Shown here piece by piece: positions 8,695 through 64,000 of a stretch of 64,000 bases of DNA. Numbering within the stretch: position 1 is the first letter of the stretch; each line of letters starts with the position of its first letter. The translations under genes and the position numbers were made by a program. The notes under the pieces are model-generated. The model had not been told where the DNA came from. It did not search any database and saw nothing but the letters and a program-made list of their open reading frames with translations. This stretch comes from Chryseomicrobium sp. FSL W7-1435 (GTDB lineage Bacteria; Bacillota; Bacilli; Bacillales_A; Planococcaceae), in assembly GCF_038595005.1 (NCBI RefSeq), contig NZ_CP151997.1:1984001-2048000 (forward strand). Reading direction: 5' to 3'.

Positions 8695-8721
8695 TCGAAA
8701 ATCCCCTTTTATACAGAATGA

Positions 8722-38420: not shown

Positions 38421-39490
38421 TCTTCTGCCTCCCTTCCTTGTTTGTAGATAGCGATGATCAAACCTGTCACAACCCAACAACTTACCAATGACGAACCTCC
38501 GTAACTTATAAACGGAAGTGTTACACCCGTAACGGGAAGCAAACCTGTCACGACACCTAGATTTACTGAGGTTTGAATGAGAAGCAATAAAGCCAGTGCA
38601 GCAATTTGAATTCCATACACCGTTTGTAAGTGATAGCTTGCTAATGTATACGCACTTCTGCCCCACAGTACATAACAAAAACAAATACAGGCCGCCATCA
38701 GCCAACCGCTTTCCTCGATAATCAACGAAAAGATAAAATCATTTTGAGGTTCAGGAAGATACAATAGCTTTTGTCTTGAATTGCCAAATCCCCATCCTGT
38801 AAATCCCGCAGGACCTATAGCCAACAAGGACTGAATTGCTTGAAAACCTGCACCTAACGGATCTTCCCATGGGTCTAAAAACGCCGTTATCCTTTTTAAC
38901 CTGTAGGGTGCCGTGGCTATTAACGCTACAAGACCAAGAACAGCTGAGACGATGCCAAGCAGTATTAAGCGCATGGAGAGCCCTGTGACAAACAATAAAG
39001 CACAGTAGGTAGCGACTAATAAAAAAGTTGACCCAAAATCTGGCTGCAGCATGAACAGTGTGCTAGGAATACCCAGAACGATTAACTGCTTGATGAGTGG
39101 TGTTTTAAAAGACAGTAAATGTGACAGGAATAAAAGAGTAGTTACTTTTGTAAGTTCGGCAGGCTGAAAATAGAAACCGGCTAGTGTAATCCAACCACGT
39201 GCACCATTTCGTACAACGCTCAACCCAGGTAACCAGACAGTTAAGGCTACCAGCAGTCCCGCAAAATAGAGGAAGACAACTGTACGATAGTCTAATTTTA
39301 TTAGCTGCACGACTTTAAATAACACAATTGCAAGCACTGCAAAAATACTCTGCTTGATCCAAAATGGCAAACTGTTCGGGTAATGAACGGCGGACCAATA
39401 ACTGCTAGCACTGGCAATATAAAAAATGCCAAGACATGTTAATAGTCCGCTGACAAAGCCAATTGTTCGCTTTGCTTGTTCAAATTGCAC
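38408..39490 (-). CDS. spoVE: SEDS-family glycosyltransferase SpoVE/FtsW-like
   Basis: Polytopic lipid II polymerase (about 10 spans) that works with a class B PBP. SEDS motifs: NGARGWITLAGFYFQPAELTK, LQPDFGSTFLLV, LPEPQNDFIFSLIIEESGW and LPFISYGGSS. Its place after murD and near spoVD matches spoVE, and a vegetative FtsW is expected elsewhere; sequence alone cannot exclude that it is FtsW. GTG start after AAGGGATGAAGCT. 360 residues. Confidence 0.88.
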   Translation of the reverse strand: MQFEQAKRTIGFVSGLLTCLGIFYIASASSYWSAVHYPNSLPFWIKQSIFAVLAIVLFKVVQLIKLDYRTVVFLYFAGLLVALTVWLPGLSVVRNGARGWITLAGFYFQPAELTKVTTLLFLSHLLSFKTPLIKQLIVLGIPSTLFMLQPDFGSTFLLVATYCALLFVTGLSMRLILLGIVSAVLGLVALIATAPYRLKRITAFLDPWEDPLGAGFQAIQSLLAIGPAGFTGWGFGNSRQKLLYLPEPQNDFIFSLIIEESGWLMAACICFCYVLWGRSAYTLASYHLQTVYGIQIAALALLLLIQTSVNLGVVTGLLPVTGVTLPFISYGGSSLVSCWVVTGLIIAIYKQGREAEEWKN

Positions 39491-39494
39491 AGCT

Positions 39495-40853
39495 TCATCC
39501 CTTCGTTTCTAAATCCTTAAACAATCGTAAAAATTCATCGCCACGAATTTCAAAGCTCTCGTATTGATCCCAACTTGCAGAAGCAGGCGATAATAACAAG
39601 ACGTCATTTGGCTCAGATAGTTCAATTGACTTCTCAAATGCCGCTGTCAATGTAGGGAAAGAATAGGCCTGTACATTATGAAGCTCTGCAAATTGTTGAA
39701 GGCGCGGTGCCGTCTCTCCAAAATGACAAATCGCTTTAATCGTCGGAAGATAGGGAATTAACTCATCGAATGAGTGATTACGTTCTTTACCACCAGCTAA
39801 AAGAATAACAGGGCGTGAAAACCCTTCTAAAGCACTCTTGGTAGCCAAAGCATTTGTTGCCTTCGAGTCGTTATAGAAAAGACGTCCTTGCCACTCGCCC
39901 GCGTATTGCGTTCTGTGTTTGACACCAGCAAAGCTTGCTACGGTTGCTCGAATTTGTTCCAGTGGAGCACCTACTAACAATGCCGCTGCTGTCGCTGCTA
40001 ATACATTCTCAAGATTGTGCTTTCCAGGCAGTCTTATTTCATCACGTTTATAAAGCGCTTCCCCTTTCCAATACACCCACTCTGCATCTGCACTGATACC
40101 TTCAGACTGTCGGCTAGACACGAAGAATGGCACTGGAGTCGCGTTAAGTGACTTCACGCGTTGTGCTAATAAAGGCTGTTCGGCATTGTAAATAAGCAAG
40201 TCTTGCTCCGTTTGATTTTTAGCAATTGCTAATTTTGCTTCGATGTATTCATCGAGGTCTGTGTGGTAGTCCAGGTGTGCCTCATAAATATTAGTAATAA
40301 TTGCAATCGAAGGTTTTAATTTTACAGTACCCATGAGCTGAAACGATGACAGTTCTGTTACGATTACATTATTTTTTGTTGCATCCTTGGCTACAGTAGT
40401 TGCAACCGTGCCAATATTCCCAGCAACTAGTGGCTCTAAAGGACCTTTTTCAAGCATCTCGCAAAGTAATGTCGTTGTTGTCGTCTTTCCATTTGAACCT
40501 GTAATTCCGATCATTGGTGCTTCACTAATTCGGTAAGCTAATTCAATTTCTGTCCAAATAGGTATTTCTCTTTTAATCGCTTCTTGTAAGACCGGATTAT
40601 TGTAAGGAATCCCAGGATTTTTGACAATTAGACTAAAGCCTTCATCGAGCAAATTTTCTGGGTGACTTCCACAAATAACGGTCATCCCCTGTTTTAACAA
40701 CTCTTGCGCTTGCGTATTTTCTTCAAATGGTTTGGAATCATTTACTGTGACGAATGCTCCGAGTTCATGAAGCATTTCAGCGGCAGCTGTCCCACTTTTA
40801 GCAAGACCTAAAACAAGTACTTTTTGATGGTAAAGTTCTTTTACTGTTTTCAT
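39495..40853 (-). CDS. murD: UDP-N-acetylmuramoyl-L-alanine--D-glutamate ligase
   Basis: Cytoplasmic ligase adding D-Glu to UDP-MurNAc-L-Ala. N-terminal Rossmann [20 protein letters not shown]-binding [19 protein letters not shown], and LSSFQL, HLDYH and HNLENVLAA boxes. The frame is open further upstream inside mraY. ATG at 40853 overlaps the mraY stop as ATGA and gives 452 residues ([11 protein letters not shown]). Confidence 0.96.
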
Positions 40854-41824
40854 CCCATGACCTCCAACACTAGCACTGCGAAAGCCGCAACAAAGCCGAC
40901 TGTCCAAAATACGTATACTACTTTTTGTTCTGACCAACCTGATAGTTCAAAATGGTGATGAATCGGGCTCATTTTAAAGATCCGTTTCCCTCTTGTTTTG
41001 AAACTTATCACTTGAAGAATTACGGAAGCTGTTTCTATAACGAAGATGACTCCAACAAAAAGGAGAAGGAGTTCAAGCTTCAAAATAATCGATAACATAG
41101 CGAGGGCTCCACCTAGTGCAAGTGAGCCTGTATCACCCATAAATACTTTTGCAGGATTCTTGTTAAACAGTAAAAATCCTAATAATGCACCTGTAACGGC
41201 AAAGGCAAAAATAGCTGCATCATTTTGGTTGTAGAGAACAGCAAAAATTCCAAATGTGGCAAATGCAATAGAAGCTGTACCGCTGACCAGGCCATCTAAT
41301 CCGTCCGTTAGATTCACTGCATTCGAGAAACCAACCAACCAAAATACGATAAATGCAACATAGAAAATTCCAAAGTCAATTGACCAAGTTGTGAAAGGAA
41401 TCGTAATAGCCGTATCGAAAGGACCTAATTGCAGTAAGAAGTAGGCAACAATCGCAATCAGAATTTGTCCAAGTAACTTTTGCAGGGATGTCAGTCCAAG
41501 ATTGCGTTTCATAACTACTTTAATAAAATCATCTAAAAAACCAAGTACTCCAAAACCAACAAGCACTAGTAGTAGAACAACTGTCTGTGTTGTGATCATT
41601 TCGAAAAAGTACGAAATTAAAAGTGTAGTCAGTGCAATGGATACTAAGAAGATAAGTCCACCCATGGTTGGTGTCCCAGTTTTTTTCTGATGGGACTGTG
41701 GACCTTCTTCTCGAATACTCTGACCGAATTTCATTCGACGAAGATAGGGAATAAATAGAGGTGCAAGTACTGCTGTAATAGCAAAACCGAGTGCGATTGT
41801 TGCGACAATTAATACGAGTGACAT
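40850..41824 (-). CDS. mraY: Phospho-N-acetylmuramoyl-pentapeptide transferase
   Basis: Membrane enzyme producing lipid I from UDP-MurNAc-pentapeptide and undecaprenyl phosphate. Ten spans. Catalytic boxes: [19 protein letters not shown] (Asp-Asp), [24 protein letters not shown] and [14 protein letters not shown]. 324 residues, SD AAAGGAGCTTCACT. Directly follows spoVD; the murE gene that lies between them in Bacillus is missing. Confidence 0.97.
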
Positions 41825-41840
41825 AGTGAAGCTCCTTTAG

Positions 41841-43730
41841 TTAATCAGTATAGAGATGGATCAGATAAGGTGGTTTTGCCAACTCCCCATCTTTAGGCAG
41901 TTGATCAATTATCTTTGTACCATCGCCATGCCAAATCAGTTTAAATTCATGTAGTTGTTGTGTGATGTCTTGTTTTGTTTGTCCCACGAGTAGGGGAACT
42001 TTTTTTTCCGGCATATCATCCCATGCCAATTCTTTTTCATGAATGCGTGGGGAGTCTTCAGCAATCGCTTCAAACAATTCACCCACTATTGGCGCCGCTA
42101 TAGTTCCACCAAATTGACTGGGACCTTGCGGTGCATCAATTGCAATATAAATTAAGTATTCGGGTTCGTCGACAGGAGCAAACCCAATAAACGAGACAAT
42201 GTACTCTCCGTCAATATACTTCCCATTCTCCACTTTTTGCGCGGTTCCCGTCTTCCCACCAATTGAAGTATAAGAGCGGTAGGCCTTATTACCAGAGCCA
42301 TGGGCAACAACTTCTCCTAATGCAAGTCGAACCTGCTCTGATGTTCCTTCCGATATCACACGCCGAAGAATCGTAGGAAAATTTTCAGCGACCGTTTCTC
42401 GAGTGCTTGGATCGACTGTTTTTGAAACAAGATAAGGTTTTACAAGATATCCTCCATTAATGGCAGCTGCAATTGCTGTCACTTGTTGAATCGGAGTAAC
42501 GGCAATCCCTTGTCCAAAAGCAGTCGTTGCTTGTTCAAGAGGACCCCAGCTGTTTTTCGAGAAGAGAATCCCGTTTTGCTCCCCTGCCAGACCAGATTGT
42601 GTAGATGAACCAAAACCAAAATCCACAATATAGTCATGCAATTTGTCGGGACCTAAGCGTTCACCGAGTTCCATGAATCCAGGGTTACAAGAATTCTCTA
42701 CTACCTCCATAAACGTCTGCGAACCGTGCCCTTCACGCTTCCAGCAACGCAAGCGATGCCCCGCCACCATGCGATAACCTGGATCATGAAAGTGGTGATC
42801 GTGTAAATCAACTAACCCCTCTTCCAAGGCCGCACTGAGCGTGATGATTTTAAATGTTGACCCCGGTTCAAATGTCATCGTGACTGGCAAGTTTTTGTAG
42901 ATGACATCGGCACTCTCTTTGTGAAAGTTACCGGGATCAAATGTAGGCAATGAAGCTAACGCCAATAATTCACCTGTCTGTGGCTGCATGACAATTCCGA
43001 CAGCCTGTTTGGCATCATACGTCTCCATTGCTTGTTGCAATTTGCCCTCAAGCAGTTGTTGAATGGTGCGATCAATCGTTAACTGAAGATGATACCCACG
43101 TTGTCCAGAATTCCATTGATCGTAAAAGTGGTTCATACGATTTCCTTTGGCGTCGGTATACATTTCTAGACTGCCATCTTCCCCAGTTAATACAGAGTCG
43201 TACATATACTCCAGTCCAGCCAGACCTTGGCCGTCTGCTCCTACGAAACCAACGACTGGTGCTAGCATTTTAGAATAAGGATAGGCTCGTTTAAAATCAA
43301 TGGTCACATACAGACCTTCATACCCTTTTGTTTGTAAATCCACTAATTGCTCTTGTGTCAGAGCAGCAGCTGTTTTGCGCAGCTCATTCAAAAAACTTTT
43401 GCGTGTCACTTCTTTTCGAATAACGGAATCCGGCAAACCTGATAATTTTTGCAGTTCCTCGATCAAGGCATCTGGAGAATCCAACTGCCCTGGCATGACA
43501 TAAAGAGTAGGTTTCAGTTCATTTGTTACTAAAATCGCTTCATTCCGATCAATAATCATGCCTCTCTCAGTAACTTGAGGTAATTGACGATTCCAACTGT
43601 CATAGGCTTTATCCGTCAACAAGTCATATTGCCAAATTTGAATATACAGCACTTTGAGCAGAATGGCTAGAAAGACTAGTAATACACTACCAACGAGAAA
43701 TTTGGTACGTCCTGCTAAGAGTCTTGGTAT
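41841..43730 (-). CDS. spoVD: Sporulation class B penicillin-binding protein SpoVD (apparent AUA start)
   Basis: Transpeptidase for spore cortex, partner of SpoVE. TM at about residues 9-30, PBP dimer domain, transpeptidase with SxxK Ser291-Lys294 (EPGSTFK), SxN in NSCNPGF and KTGTAQ; one C-terminal PASTA repeat (KKVPLLVGQTKQDI). Two cysteines 19 apart (RCWK and SCNP, Cys329 and Cys348) match the redox pair of B. subtilis SpoVD. No in-frame ATG/GTG/TTG precedes the TM segment. AGGAGG is 7 bases before ATA at 43728-43730, giving 629 residues with the active-site serine within three positions of B. subtilis. The first canonical codon, GTG at 43652, would remove the membrane anchor and has no SD. 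Confidence 0.85.
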   Translation of the reverse strand: MPRLLAGRTKFLVGSVLLVFLAILLKVLYIQIWQYDLLTDKAYDSWNRQLPQVTERGMIIDRNEAILVTNELKPTLYVMPGQLDSPDALIEELQKLSGLPDSVIRKEVTRKSFLNELRKTAAALTQEQLVDLQTKGYEGLYVTIDFKRAYPYSKMLAPVVGFVGADGQGLAGLEYMYDSVLTGEDGSLEMYTDAKGNRMNHFYDQWNSGQRGYHLQLTIDRTIQQLLEGKLQQAMETYDAKQAVGIVMQPQTGELLALASLPTFDPGNFHKESADVIYKNLPVTMTFEPGSTFKIITLSAALEEGLVDLHDHHFHDPGYRMVAGHRLRCWKREGHGSQTFMEVVENSCNPGFMELGERLGPDKLHDYIVDFGFGSSTQSGLAGEQNGILFSKNSWGPLEQATTAFGQGIAVTPIQQVTAIAAAINGGYLVKPYLVSKTVDPSTRETVAENFPTILRRVISEGTSEQVRLALGEVVAHGSGNKAYRSYTSIGGKTGTAQKVENGKYIDGEYIVSFIGFAPVDEPEYLIYIAIDAPQGPSQFGGTIAAPIVGELFEAIAEDSPRIHEKELAWDDMPEKKVPLLVGQTKQDITQQLHEFKLIWHGDGTKIIDQLPKDGELAKPPYLIHLYTD

Positions 43731-43770
43731 AAAATAACCTCCTGCCCTACTTTATGACAAGGAGAGAAGG

Positions 43771-45984
43771 TTATTCCCCTTCAACTGGCTCTTCTACAGG
43801 TTCACCTTCCATTTCAATCGGTTCATTGTTATAGACTTCTTCGGGATTTCCAAGTTCAATCACGATTGGTGCATCCGCCGTTGCAGTAGATCCTGCTGTA
43901 ATACTCTGACGAACAACGAAACCAGTACCAGTAACTTCAATAGGAAGACCTGTGAATTCTTTAAAAATCATCACTTCACGAGAAGACCACCCTGTCATGT
44001 CAGGCAAAATGATATCGCCTTCAGCTTTCAAGAATACTTTTGTGCCTGTGATGAGTGTTGTATCACCTTCAGGGAACTGCTGAGATACTTTGCCTTGTTG
44101 ACCTACTGGAATGACTTCAAGTCCTTGCGCCTGCAAACTAGATTGAACTTCACTGACTTCTTGTCCTTGATAGTTTTTCACTTCAACAATTTGTCGTTCT
44201 GTTGATTCATTCGGTAAAATATTCATATACTTAAGAGCGTTTTCAGTTACGTAGTTGAAAATATATGAAGTCGGGTCAGACCCCACTTCGCTTGCTTCAA
44301 TTTTTGGTTTATGGACAGCCACATAGACGATTAATTCAGGATCTTCTACAGGTGCCATTCCTAAAAATGAATACAAGAATAACTGACGACCCCAGAGATA
44401 ATTGCCGTTCGGGTCAGGTATTTGAGCAGTACCCGTTTTACCAGCTGAAGTGTAAGAGTCTAGTTTGAACTTTTGCGCCGTTCCTTTTTCACTTGTCACG
44501 GTACTCGCTAGAATATCTTTCACTTGATTGGCCGTTGCAGCAGAGATTGGTGAATCTTTTGTTACAGGCTCATGATTTAATAATTCTTCACCGGTGTTCG
44601 GGTCGATGATTTTATCTATAATAAACGGTTGGTACATGGTCCCCTCATTAGCGATAGCCGTCATCCCTTGCACGAGCTGTAGCGGCGTAACAGTCGTTCC
44701 TTGACCGTACGTAGTTGTAAGTCGATTTATCGGGTAGCGATCACTAATGATTCCCGTTGCTTCCCCTGGTAAATCAATTCCGGTCTTTTCTCCAAAACCG
44801 AATTCCTTGATGTAATTAATAAACGTTTCGTCCCCTAGTTTTTCGAGCAAGTAAGCCATCGAAACATTCGAAGAACGTTGGAAACCTTCTAGATAAGTGA
44901 TGGTTCCCCACCCATCCACATTGTGGTCATAAATAGTACGGTCAAGAAGTTTATACGAACCGGATTTATACCAGGCGTTAGGATCCCACTTACCTTCTTC
45001 AATAGCAGCTGCCAGTGTAAAGATCTTCATGGTTGAACCTGGCTCAATTGTATTCTCCACACTTTCATTTAACCAGTTCGTCGTAAGTCCTTCACGAGTA
45101 TTAGGGTCAAATGTAGGTCGCTGAGTCATTGCTAAGATTTCACCAGTGTCTGCTTTTACAACTAGTGCTGTTATTTTTTCAGGTTCATACATTTCTTGAA
45201 CATCTGAAACTGCTTCTTCTAAGAAATTTTGAATGGTTCTATCATTTGTAAGCAAAACGTCTGCTCCATGCTTCGGTTCAGTAATCAATTTATCCGAAGA
45301 TGGCAGCAACAACCCACCACGGTCTGTCTGGTATTCAAGAGTTCCTGGCGTTCCCGTTAATAACTCGTCATAAATGCGTTCAAGACCCATTTTTCCAACC
45401 AAACGACTTCTACTGTCTTCTAAGTCTTCTTTAATCGCAAATCCAATAAGATGTGACGCAAAACGGCCATTTGTATAGAGACGCTTCAGATCTTTCTCGA
45501 ACTCAATCCCCGGAAGATTTAGTGCATCGATTTCTTTCATTTCTTGGTTAGAAATGTCGCGACCTTGTGCACCAAACTCTACCTGATAGCGTTCATTATC
45601 GATTCCATTTTGAAGAACCGTGGCAATTTCTTCTTTTGTCAGATCAAGATGCTCACTTAATTGTTGAGCGGTTGTTTCCACATCTAAAACGTGACGAGGG
45701 TCATAGGCGTGAGCTGTAGCTTCTTCACTTACGACTGCATAAATTTTATAGCTCAGCGTGTCTTCCGCTATGACCTGTCCGTTTCGATCTTGAATGGTTC
45801 CTCGGTGGGCTTCTAGTAGTTGTGAACGGCTATATTTATCTTCTGCACGTTGCTGCAATACTTCCCCATTTACTTCTCCCGTGACTTGAATGTAGATAAA
45901 TCTACCTAATAATAGGAAAAAGAGCCCTCCATAAAGTAAAAACAGTAGGAAGGCTCCCCATCGAAAACGCACTTTTTTGTTCAT
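43771..45984 (-). CDS. pbpB: Division transpeptidase PBP 2B
   Basis: Essential septal class B PBP. Basic cytosolic tail, TM at about 11-33, dimerisation domain (to about 240), transpeptidase domain with SxxK Ser317-Lys320 (EPGSTMK), SSNVSMAYLLEKLG (SxN) and AGKTGTAQIP (KTG). Two C-terminal PASTA repeats (about 600-720) and an acidic tail. 737 residues. Overlaps ftsL as ATGA. With the neighbouring SpoVD it forms the usual vegetative/sporulation pair. Confidence 0.96.
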   Translation of the reverse strand: MNKKVRFRWGAFLLFLLYGGLFFLLLGRFIYIQVTGEVNGEVLQQRAEDKYSRSQLLEAHRGTIQDRNGQVIAEDTLSYKIYAVVSEEATAHAYDPRHVLDVETTAQQLSEHLDLTKEEIATVLQNGIDNERYQVEFGAQGRDISNQEMKEIDALNLPGIEFEKDLKRLYTNGRFASHLIGFAIKEDLEDSRSRLVGKMGLERIYDELLTGTPGTLEYQTDRGGLLLPSSDKLITEPKHGADVLLTNDRTIQNFLEEAVSDVQEMYEPEKITALVVKADTGEILAMTQRPTFDPNTREGLTTNWLNESVENTIEPGSTMKIFTLAAAIEEGKWDPNAWYKSGSYKLLDRTIYDHNVDGWGTITYLEGFQRSSNVSMAYLLEKLGDETFINYIKEFGFGEKTGIDLPGEATGIISDRYPINRLTTTYGQGTTVTPLQLVQGMTAIANEGTMYQPFIIDKIIDPNTGEELLNHEPVTKDSPISAATANQVKDILASTVTSEKGTAQKFKLDSYTSAGKTGTAQIPDPNGNYLWGRQLFLYSFLGMAPVEDPELIVYVAVHKPKIEASEVGSDPTSYIFNYVTENALKYMNILPNESTERQIVEVKNYQGQEVSEVQSSLQAQGLEVIPVGQQGKVSQQFPEGDTTLITGTKVFLKAEGDIILPDMTGWSSREVMIFKEFTGLPIEVTGTGFVVRQSITAGSTATADAPIVIELGNPEEVYNNEPIEMEGEPVEEPVEGE

Positions 45985-62329: not shown

Positions 62330-62821
62330 TTGCAATCCACTGAAACCATTCAAAGCTTTTACGAACAAGCTTCAGAAACTGAACAACACCTATTAACCTC
62401 GTTCGTCCAAGGTCTTAAGGATAAACGACAAGGACTTTACACAACTTACATAAATGCAGCCTTTCAGTTTGATATCTCATTCCCTGAAGATACGTGTCGT
62501 GTCGAAATGCCCGTTACCCCTTTGACCGTCAACTCATTTGGCATGCCACATGGCGGTATACTAGCAACTCTGATTGACAACGCGATGGGCTTCCTTGTCA
62601 ATAAAGAGCTACGTCCCGTTGGTAAAGGTGCCGTTACTACAAATTTAACGATTCATTACACGAAGGCAACAACTGATGCTCATGTTTACAGTATTGCTTC
62701 CTACTTGCACAAAGGCCGTCAAACGCTTGTGCTTGAAGGATCGGTTTATGATACACAAGGCACGCGAATAGCTTATGCAACAGGCTCTTTCTTTGTTATT
62801 GATTTACCCACTCCTCAATAA
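62330..62821 (+). CDS. PaaI/YuxO-type hotdog thioesterase
   Basis: Acyl-CoA thioesterase of the hotdog fold. Central helix motif NSFGMPHGGILATLIDNAMG with the HGG box; VTTNLTIHYTKATTD is the following strand pair. The N-terminal about 45 residues are helical. TTG start at 62330-62332 lies 9 bases after AAAGGGG; an ATG far upstream lies inside divergent ylbF. 163 residues. Physiological acyl substrate unknown. Converges with and overlaps the MurE-like gene by 26 bases. Confidence 0.8.
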   Translation: MQSTETIQSFYEQASETEQHLLTSFVQGLKDKRQGLYTTYINAAFQFDISFPEDTCRVEMPVTPLTVNSFGMPHGGILATLIDNAMGFLVNKELRPVGKGAVTTNLTIHYTKATTDAHVYSIASYLHKGRQTLVLEGSVYDTQGTRIAYATGSFFVIDLPTPQ

Positions 62822-64000
62822 CAGAGCGATCAGTGTAAGGAATCTTAACTTCTCTATACTCAATGAAGGGTTCATTGCCTTTACCAGCAATGATAACGAT
62901 ATCTCCTTGTTTACTAGTAGTAAGTGCGTACCAAATTGCGGCTCGTCTGTCTGCCAGGATGAGCGCGCTTGGTGCGCCTTTTTTAATGTCCAACAGTGGC
63001 TGTAAACTGTCTTCAAATCGTGGATTGTCCATTGTGATGATAACCCGGTTGCACTGGATTTCTGCTATTTGCCCTATTACTTCCCTTTTCGCGCGATCTC
63101 TATCTCCCCCACAGCCAATAATTAAAGTTTTACTCCCTTGGAATGAATCCACTAATTTTTGTAAAGCATCAGGCGTGTGAGCAAAATCAATCACTACCCT
63201 TACGTCTCCTATAGTAATTACTTCATAGCGACCTGGCGGAGAGGTTAGCTTTTTTTTCGTGTAGCTGAGTCGCAAAAATTCACAACAACTGACAGCTGTT
63301 GCTTCGTTTAATTTGTGCAAATCTGAAGTTGGTAATACAACAAGAGAATTTTTAGATTTTAGGCCCTGTAAATAAGCAGGTTTTGTGACCACGCAGCAGC
63401 TAGCCAATTGGACAATTTGTTGCTTCACGTCTAAGTAATGGTTGAATGAACCATGGTAGTCCAGGTGATCATGTGACACTTCATGGGCAACTATACAACT
63501 AAACGGAATATTGTTTAGCCGCCCCTCAACAAACCCAATCGAGGAAGCCTCTAACAAAATAATTTCACATCCTGATGCAACAGCTAATTTTGCAGCTTTT
63601 ATTAATTCTAGTAGTGGCAATGTTGTATTTGAGCTAAAGGCCTCTTTAACTTTTTCGCCTTTAATGCGAACTCCTAACGTCCCAATTGTAGCTACAGCAT
63701 AATGATCGGAAAGAAGTTGCTCTAAGTAATAGACAGTAGTTGTTTTGCCGTTAGTTCCCGTTACCCCTACCCAGTGATTAATCGAACGGCAACTAGAGAA
63801 GAAGTAACGTGTGTAATTTTCAATAACTAGTTGGGCATCAGTCACTTGTAACAAGAAGAGCGAAGAATTTTGAAAAGCTAGTTGAACTCCACAACTGGGT
63901 TTCGAGGAAAAATAGTGGGCATTTCTTTCATTAATTAAGATGGCATCTGCTTGATGTTTGGAGTGATCCGACAACGTTTCTAGACTATATGGGATTTCCG
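62796..64000 (-). CDS. Divergent MurE-family ligase (5' end beyond window)
   Basis: Mur ligase related to UDP-MurNAc-tripeptide synthetase. The frame stays open to the right edge (EIPYSLETLSDHSKHQADA), so the N-terminus is missing. P-loop WVGVTGTNGKTTTVYYLEQL, ATIGTLGV, SHDHLDYHGSFNHYLDVKQQ (carbamylated-Lys position kept), FAHTPDALQKLVDSF and DNPRFEDSL (DNPR, meso-diaminopimelate type). Oddities: EASSIGF where MurE has SSH, and GKGNE in place of GKGHE. It is outside the division cluster, which lacks murE. It may be the cell's only MurE or a paralogue. Confidence 0.75.
   Translation of the reverse strand, partial: EIPYSLETLSDHSKHQADAILINERNAHYFSSKPSCGVQLAFQNSSLFLLQVTDAQLVIENYTRYFFSSCRSINHWVGVTGTNGKTTTVYYLEQLLSDHYAVATIGTLGVRIKGEKVKEAFSSNTTLPLLELIKAAKLAVASGCEIILLEASSIGFVEGRLNNIPFSCIVAHEVSHDHLDYHGSFNHYLDVKQQIVQLASCCVVTKPAYLQGLKSKNSLVVLPTSDLHKLNEATAVSCCEFLRLSYTKKKLTSPPGRYEVITIGDVRVVIDFAHTPDALQKLVDSFQGSKTLIIGCGGDRDRAKREVIGQIAEIQCNRVIITMDNPRFEDSLQPLLDIKKGAPSALILADRRAAIWYALTTSKQGDIVIIAGKGNEPFIEYREVKIPYTDRSVIEEWVNQ

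Follow-up and report, generated by a model that had tools for sequence, protein, structure and literature searches.

Where does translation begin in a gene whose reading frame offers no canonical start codon ahead of its membrane anchor? The question is raised by a spoVD-like gene on the minus strand (41841–43730; 629 codons counted from an ATA, stop at 41841–41843) of a 64,000-nucleotide stretch of Chryseomicrobium sp. FSL W7-1435, all of which was analysed and which we call the window. The predicted product is a class B penicillin-binding protein with the Pfam domains PBP_dimer and Transpeptidase and the catalytic motifs STFK, SCN and KTG at residues 291, 347 and 493. Its best NCBIfam match by far is TIGR02214 (spoVD), at 586 bits under a curated cut-off of 688 that three of the five further family SpoVDs scanned also miss (682, 673 and 664; the remaining two reach 701 and 711). 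The location fits SpoVD, an enzyme required for the spore cortex, as well: the gene lies in the dcw cluster, with pbpB (43771–45984, minus strand; a division penicillin-binding protein with PASTA domains, named by place and domains) as its upstream neighbour and mraY (40850–41824, minus strand), which starts with ATG and served as our control gene, on its downstream side. In B. subtilis, murE lies between spoVD and mraY; it is absent from the corresponding gap of the window (41825–41840), and a murE-like C-terminal part is found about 20 kb away, at 62800–63560 on the minus strand (TIGR01085, 205 bits, partial and under the cut-off). Two genes past mraY, at 39490 on the minus strand, stands an ftsW/spoVE-like gene with a predicted GTG start.

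The ATA at 43728–43730 is preceded by an in-frame TAA (43752–43754) seven codons upstream. The intervening codons, AGT AGG GCA GGA GGT TAT TTT, include no NTG or ATN codon (0/7), and ATG, GTG and TTG are absent from the frame all the way from this stop (43754–43752) to a GTG at 43652–43650, codon +26. A Shine-Dalgarno (SD) sequence, AGGAGG, occupies 43738–43743 and leaves a 7-nucleotide spacer to the ATA. The SD score is 20.5 for the ATA versus 7 for the GTG, whose match is weak, and starting at the GTG would leave hardly anything of the hydrophobic anchor, which by eye extends over approximately residues 12–28. These observations bear out what the original prediction had said of the locus: that no ATG, GTG or TTG lies between the in-frame stop and the membrane segment, that a perfect AGGAGG sits 7 bases before the ATA, and that the GTG has no proper SD and would cost the protein its anchor. 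It had also placed the active-site serine within three residues of that of B. subtilis SpoVD, which agrees with position 291 here and Ser294 there, as given in the accessible part of PMC3906833.

Scanning the window for an SD score of at least 17, at a spacing of 5–9, before a codon other than ATG, GTG or TTG that opens at least 100 codons returned 14 rows, 11 of them with an upstream in-frame canonical start. In the row at 63560 the frame reaches the window edge or has a canonical start upstream, and the row at 8712 has no upstream canonical start but carries an ATG six codons on with its own AAAGGGG, leaving spoVD as the sole row of the 14 without a good canonical alternative. Judged by the sequences of its relatives, the start pattern of spoVD is beyond chance. 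Three other ideas about the site were rejected. Two folds of the RNA around the start gave no significant structure (z 0.54 and 1.08), and masking of the SD by RNA structure was dropped for this lack of signal. The promoter spacer contains a pyrimidine-rich run that resembles an anti-SD, a likeness without statistical support. An upstream start, with the isoleucine internal, was discarded wherever the stretch from stop to ATH (ATT, ATA or ATC) has no NTG or ATN codon (G000, the genome of the window, G041 and G065).

The aligned codons of relatives, together with the SD spacing, are the basis for assigning the initiation codon to the ATA. In the other three species of the genus (G001, G002 and G003) spoVD occupies the same place and is broken by internal deletions, frameshifts and stops; its start site is still readable and well conserved. 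AGGAGG is kept with identical spacing in all three, and the site reads CAGGAGGGAATTTT-ATT in G001, CAGGAGGTTATTTT-ATC in G002 and G003, and CAGGAGGTTATTTT-ATA in G000, so that all four members of the genus have ATH at this point and none has ATG. The closest intact SpoVDs, at 52–54% identity, are those of another genus (g4; 19 genomes, 20 copies), where the start codon is ATT in 17 of the 20 copies and ATA in 3, and where ATG does not occur at the aligned site (0/20). All 20 share the layout AAAGGRGA, a variable stretch and ATH, followed by TCN in 18 and then AAR in every copy. The start rule applied to g1 and g4 demanded an ATH 7 nucleotides from the SD and could not have returned an ATG; the absence of ATG is therefore taken from the sequences themselves. 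Alignment of the relatives' starts, which had been suggested as a check, thus gives ATH at the homologous site in both neighbouring genera, in 23 of 23 genomes (4 and 19), and ATG never, so the AUA-start interpretation of the original prediction is supported by the comparison. A sequencing or assembly error, with ATG read as ATA, had been regarded as the main alternative, and a single base would suffice for it, but the three additional genomes of the genus and the 20 g4 copies, none with ATG at the site, contradict it and reduce its probability to almost nothing; they likewise rule out the loss of a start in a single strain.

A start at a downstream canonical codon lacking an SD is scarcely more credible. 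Some ATG, GTG or TTG does occur further in, in every g1–g4 row examined, but its position varies (+6 to +19 in g4, +26 in G000) and the SD score there does not exceed 12, against at least 15.5 at the ATH, in each of 21 rows (G000 and g4). Besides sacrificing the anchor in G000, such a start is at odds with protein-like conservation that reaches back to the ATH. Across the 20 g4 copies, the four codons ahead of the ATH, into which part of the SD falls, have entropies of 0.29/0.77/1.14 at codon positions 1/2/3, compared with 0.57/0.10/0.75 for the six codons that follow it; in this alignment, reading-frame constraint, notably of second positions, is seen to set in at the ATH. There is no ATG, GTG or TTG from the in-frame stop to the ATH in 13 of the 20 g4 copies; the other 7 carry a candidate TTG or GTG start close to the SD, one or two codons ahead of the ATT. 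The ATH proteins make up one side of a branch with an SH-aLRT of 98 in a quickly built tree of 121 SpoVDs that omits the first 40 residues, the placement of G000 being unsure because of its long branch. The parsimonious reading of these sequences is a single AUH start in the common ancestor of the window's genus and g4.

The state of the sister genes raises the possibility of decay, in which an ATG would have been lost as the first lesion and the ATA would be the dead start of a recently formed pseudogene; spoVD is broken in each of the other three genomes of this genus. The window's SpoVD is indeed accelerated: its tip length is 1.06 against a median of 0.033 in the 121-protein tree, and it deviates alone at 9 of 181 otherwise invariant columns (every other row at no more than 1), both figures being inflated because this is the only intact spoVD of its genus. 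We nevertheless take them to reflect genuinely faster change, which means that selection may be weakening. Among sporulation proteins, the scores of SpoIVA and SpoIIE in G000 are below those of relatives. However, all 20 intact g4 copies have ATH, which makes the ATH older than the decay, and the 629-codon frame has stayed open, with its catalytic motifs, over a divergence large enough to have changed most synonymous sites. The dS of pbpB between G000 and its sisters is near saturation (2.9 for G001, 2.4 for G002, not computable for G003), and so long a frame could hardly have lasted from the ancestor of these species without selection. Differences between G000 and the three large clean sister remnants fall mostly at third positions (by codon position, 24/12/71 over 128 codons in G001, 16/6/44 over 60 in G002 and 18/12/35 over 70 in G003). 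Four small pieces of 32–39 codons are less rich in third-position differences (9/7/15, 8/6/15, 13/6/18 and 9/5/17), a 182-codon remnant of G002 with three stops, apparently spanning a frameshift, gives 83/52/110, and the short N-terminal remnants show weaker constraint (dN 0.29 and dS 0.47 over 39 codons in G001; dN 0.26 and dS 0.79 over 37 codons in G003).

Also against decay, SpoIVA, SpoIIE and SigE are still full-length in G000. SpoIVA scores 470 bits, over its cut-off, in a 489-codon frame; SpoIIE scores 279 bits in a 780-codon frame, and SigE 331 bits, where other genera with an intact spoVD give 323–347. For SigE and SpoIIE these scores stay below the curated model cut-offs, which were passed by none of the family genomes examined (61 for SigE, 10 for SpoIIE) and by one control genome each. 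A search of G001, G002 and G003 for SpoIVA, SigE and SpoIIE found fragments or paralogues only. Because it has kept these three proteins and its sisters have not, the window's species looks, by gene content, like the one remaining spore-former of the four. In the sisters (L085–L087) the spoVD and spoIVA remnants are broken, and the search turned up neither SigE nor SpoIIE in intact form; sporulation seems, from these genomes, to be dying out inside one genus. Pure decay is weakened by the g4 starts and by the intact sporulation genes to the point of being improbable, and the accelerated rate still counts in its favour. That the AUA at 43730–43728 is the start of spoVD is, on the comparisons above, very probable.

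Weak starts of spoVD are not confined to these two genera. A spoVD match at E ≤1e-150 was obtained in 193 of 261 family genomes, and start codons were surveyed in 121 copies from 120 of the 193, assigned via conserved N-terminal sequence or SD spacing; the automatic SD-based pick is doubtful in the ATG genera g5, g11, g17, g18 and g19, in one g10 and in G075. The starts were ATG in 60 copies, CTG in 17, ATT in 17, TTG in 16, GTG in 7 and ATA in 4, which makes 61 of 121 non-ATG (21 ATH, 17 CTG, 16 TTG, 7 GTG); the 60 ATG copies were counted against the weak-start reading. In g2, the 27 genomes examined have 17 CTG, 9 TTG and 1 GTG, with no upstream in-frame ATG, GTG or TTG in 12 of the 17 CTG cases, and all six g3 genes examined start with GTG. 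The CTG starts take up a whole branch of g2 (loci such as L094, L097 and L152–L159). As a control, mraY was confirmed by homology in the 600 bases that follow spoVD at 113 of the 121 loci, and in all 113 an ATG with an SD score of at least 10 lies within three codons of the aligned start. A neighbouring ATH outscores this ATG on SD in 6 of the 113, so that the SD score alone is no proof of a start. The eight loci in which mraY was unconfirmed comprise one with 157 bases of downstream sequence and seven with 394–600 bases and no match.

Matches listed in an order-level search for spoVD came from the same family only, and the class, which we take to be Bacilli, was searched for this reason. Other families yielded 87 matching genomes, of which 84 were taken, with GTG in 38, TTG in 23 and ATG in 22, leaving out one ambiguous case called as CTG. 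Non-ATG starts account for 61 of 83 spoVD genes versus 34 of 82 downstream genes (Fisher p 4e-5, ignoring relatedness), a comparison in which the control is noisy and restricted to ATG, GTG and TTG. The class-level picker favours canonical codons and cannot detect AUH or CUG cases; these counts consequently measure GTG and TTG against ATG only. A plasmid collection was also searched and gave no match. On the family and class counts, weak predicted starts of spoVD are widespread, and two lineages have gone beyond GTG and TTG.

Why should a developmental cell-wall gene keep a poor start codon? Upstream of spoVD, at 43749–43776 on the minus strand, lies a candidate promoter, GAATA-N15-CATAAAGT, whose -35-like part overlaps the pbpB stop. 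The corresponding pattern ([GA]AATA or GCATA, 13–17 bases, CATAnnnT, within 130 bases upstream), devised after viewing the loci, recurs at 111 of the 121 family loci, compared with 0.6% of upstream sequences after shuffling; we take it to be a sigma-E-like promoter. Since this predicted promoter overlaps the end of pbpB, spoVD could be transcribed both from its own promoter and by read-through from pbpB. The available part of PMC10693644 places the expression of B. subtilis spoVD in the mother cell, once asymmetric division has taken place.

We propose that the ribosome would start spoVD at AUA 43730–43728, steered by the perfect AGGAGG, and that this AUA would be the species' version of an AUH start (AUU, AUA or AUC) that came from the ancestor of both genera. 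AUH would be a deliberately poor start which limits SpoVD synthesis. The main target may be SpoVD made in vegetative cells from read-through transcripts of the division-wall operon, where pbpB and mraY flank the gene, and during sporulation the gene's own sigma-E-type mother-cell promoter would supply enough mRNA. Less certainly, the start could be tuned by initiation factor IF3, whose own gene apparently starts with AUU. We hold with good confidence that the AUA start is genuine, that it belongs to an AUH class conserved in the clade and that it throttles SpoVD synthesis, and consider it likely, with somewhat more reserve, that AUH has been kept by selection for weak initiation. That read-through is the main reason for the weak start is tentative, a little short of evenly balanced.

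Copies of spoVD for which no mraY was found downstream bear on this last point. TTG is the start of four g13 copies that lack an mraY in the next 394 bases, and ATT that of the second spoVD of G066, which lacks one in the next 600; weak starts kept without a downstream mraY argue against read-through as the only reason. Such spoVD genes, with no mraY found downstream, include L176, L177, L182 and L183 in g13 and L120 in g4, all in genomes with several copies. In the tree, those of g13 fall with g10, as transferred genes might, and have TTG where g10 has ATG. The same extra copies, in keeping TTG or ATT, favour an explanation by stoichiometry, in which a weak start would prevent SpoVD from exceeding SpoVE, or from competing with PBP2B for FtsW, during sporulation. 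A SpoVD–SpoVE pair is described in the accessible parts of PMC3906833 and PMC10693644, and nothing direct speaks against stoichiometry, which sequence alone cannot separate from the read-through throttle; we see it as a possible explanation that stops short of being probable.

Turning back to the proposed throttle, weak starts that hold protein levels down are known elsewhere. The E. coli pcnB gene reportedly has an AUU start whose inefficiency limits expression, as we suggest for spoVD, and unlike spoVD it is said not to be a developmental gene. In S. aureus, AUU and AUA starts with a strong SD reach roughly 10% of the AUG level, and the AUA of ccpN up to 30% in rich medium (accessible text of PMC13009471). 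The same text describes ccpN (AUA) and cvfC1 (AUU) as conserved non-canonical starts with strong SDs, as in spoVD, and the ccpN start as also kept in B. subtilis. These are different genes in another family, whereas spoVD interchanges ATT, ATA and ATC, and has CTG in another genus. Given such reporters and the family- and class-wide bias, the low, regulated SpoVD level put forward in the original prediction appears more plausible by analogy. Streptomyces sigR, like spoVD, has a rare start (GTC), which holds down the amount of protein and on which IF3 acts as a repressor (PMC5472188, in part); it differs in being GUC, in encoding a sigma factor and in having been tested experimentally, whereas for spoVD the evidence is comparative. 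Among 61,358 ancestral AUG starts in 36 triplets of related genomes, the part of PMC5622118 that was available counts two changes to CUG and one to AUU.

A further parallel lies in the same genomes. The gene for IF3, infC, belongs to the genes with AUU, AUC or AUA starts. It begins with ATT or ATC, and IF3 represses non-canonical starts, as stated in the available portion of PMC5472188. An invariant ATT AGC stands behind an SD at the expected infC start in 15 of 15 genomes (L136–L150; G000 and relatives), and if this conserved ATT AGC is the start, infC appears to begin with ATT in all 15. In four g4 genomes the preceding codon is GTT, and the start may thus be one codon past that of an ATT-ATT-AGC reading. 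The two genes are alike in a conserved AUH codon and a strong SD, but infC encodes the factor itself, which permits feedback, whereas spoVD is a developmental cell-wall gene, so that any effect of IF3 on it would be one-way. Whether the spoVD start responds to IF3 in vivo is, by this analogy, a matter on which we would put equal weight on either side. A bolder reading, of a class-wide, long-standing and selected weak start acting as an IF3-gated lock that bars SpoVD from the vegetative division machinery despite the gene's place within a constitutively transcribed division operon, is conceivable from the survey and would at present seem to us rather doubtful; in it, a weak start that is GUG or UUG in most of the families sampled would have been pushed to CUG in one genus and to AUU, AUA or AUC in a pair of genera.

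No report of a non-canonical start of spoVD, or of its AUH and CUG diversity, was found in an open-licence library. Non-canonical regulatory starts are of an already known kind, and spoVD as a member would be new within the open-licence literature searched. Gene callers limited to ATG, GTG and TTG will mis-start SpoVD in the AUH and CUG genera, and in the genome of the window the anchor is lost in this way. Few bacterial genes are known to retain starts other than AUG, GUG or UUG by selection. The persistence of AUH over two genera, and of CUG in another, suggests that in this family weak initiation may be a selected separator of the spore-wall and division machineries.
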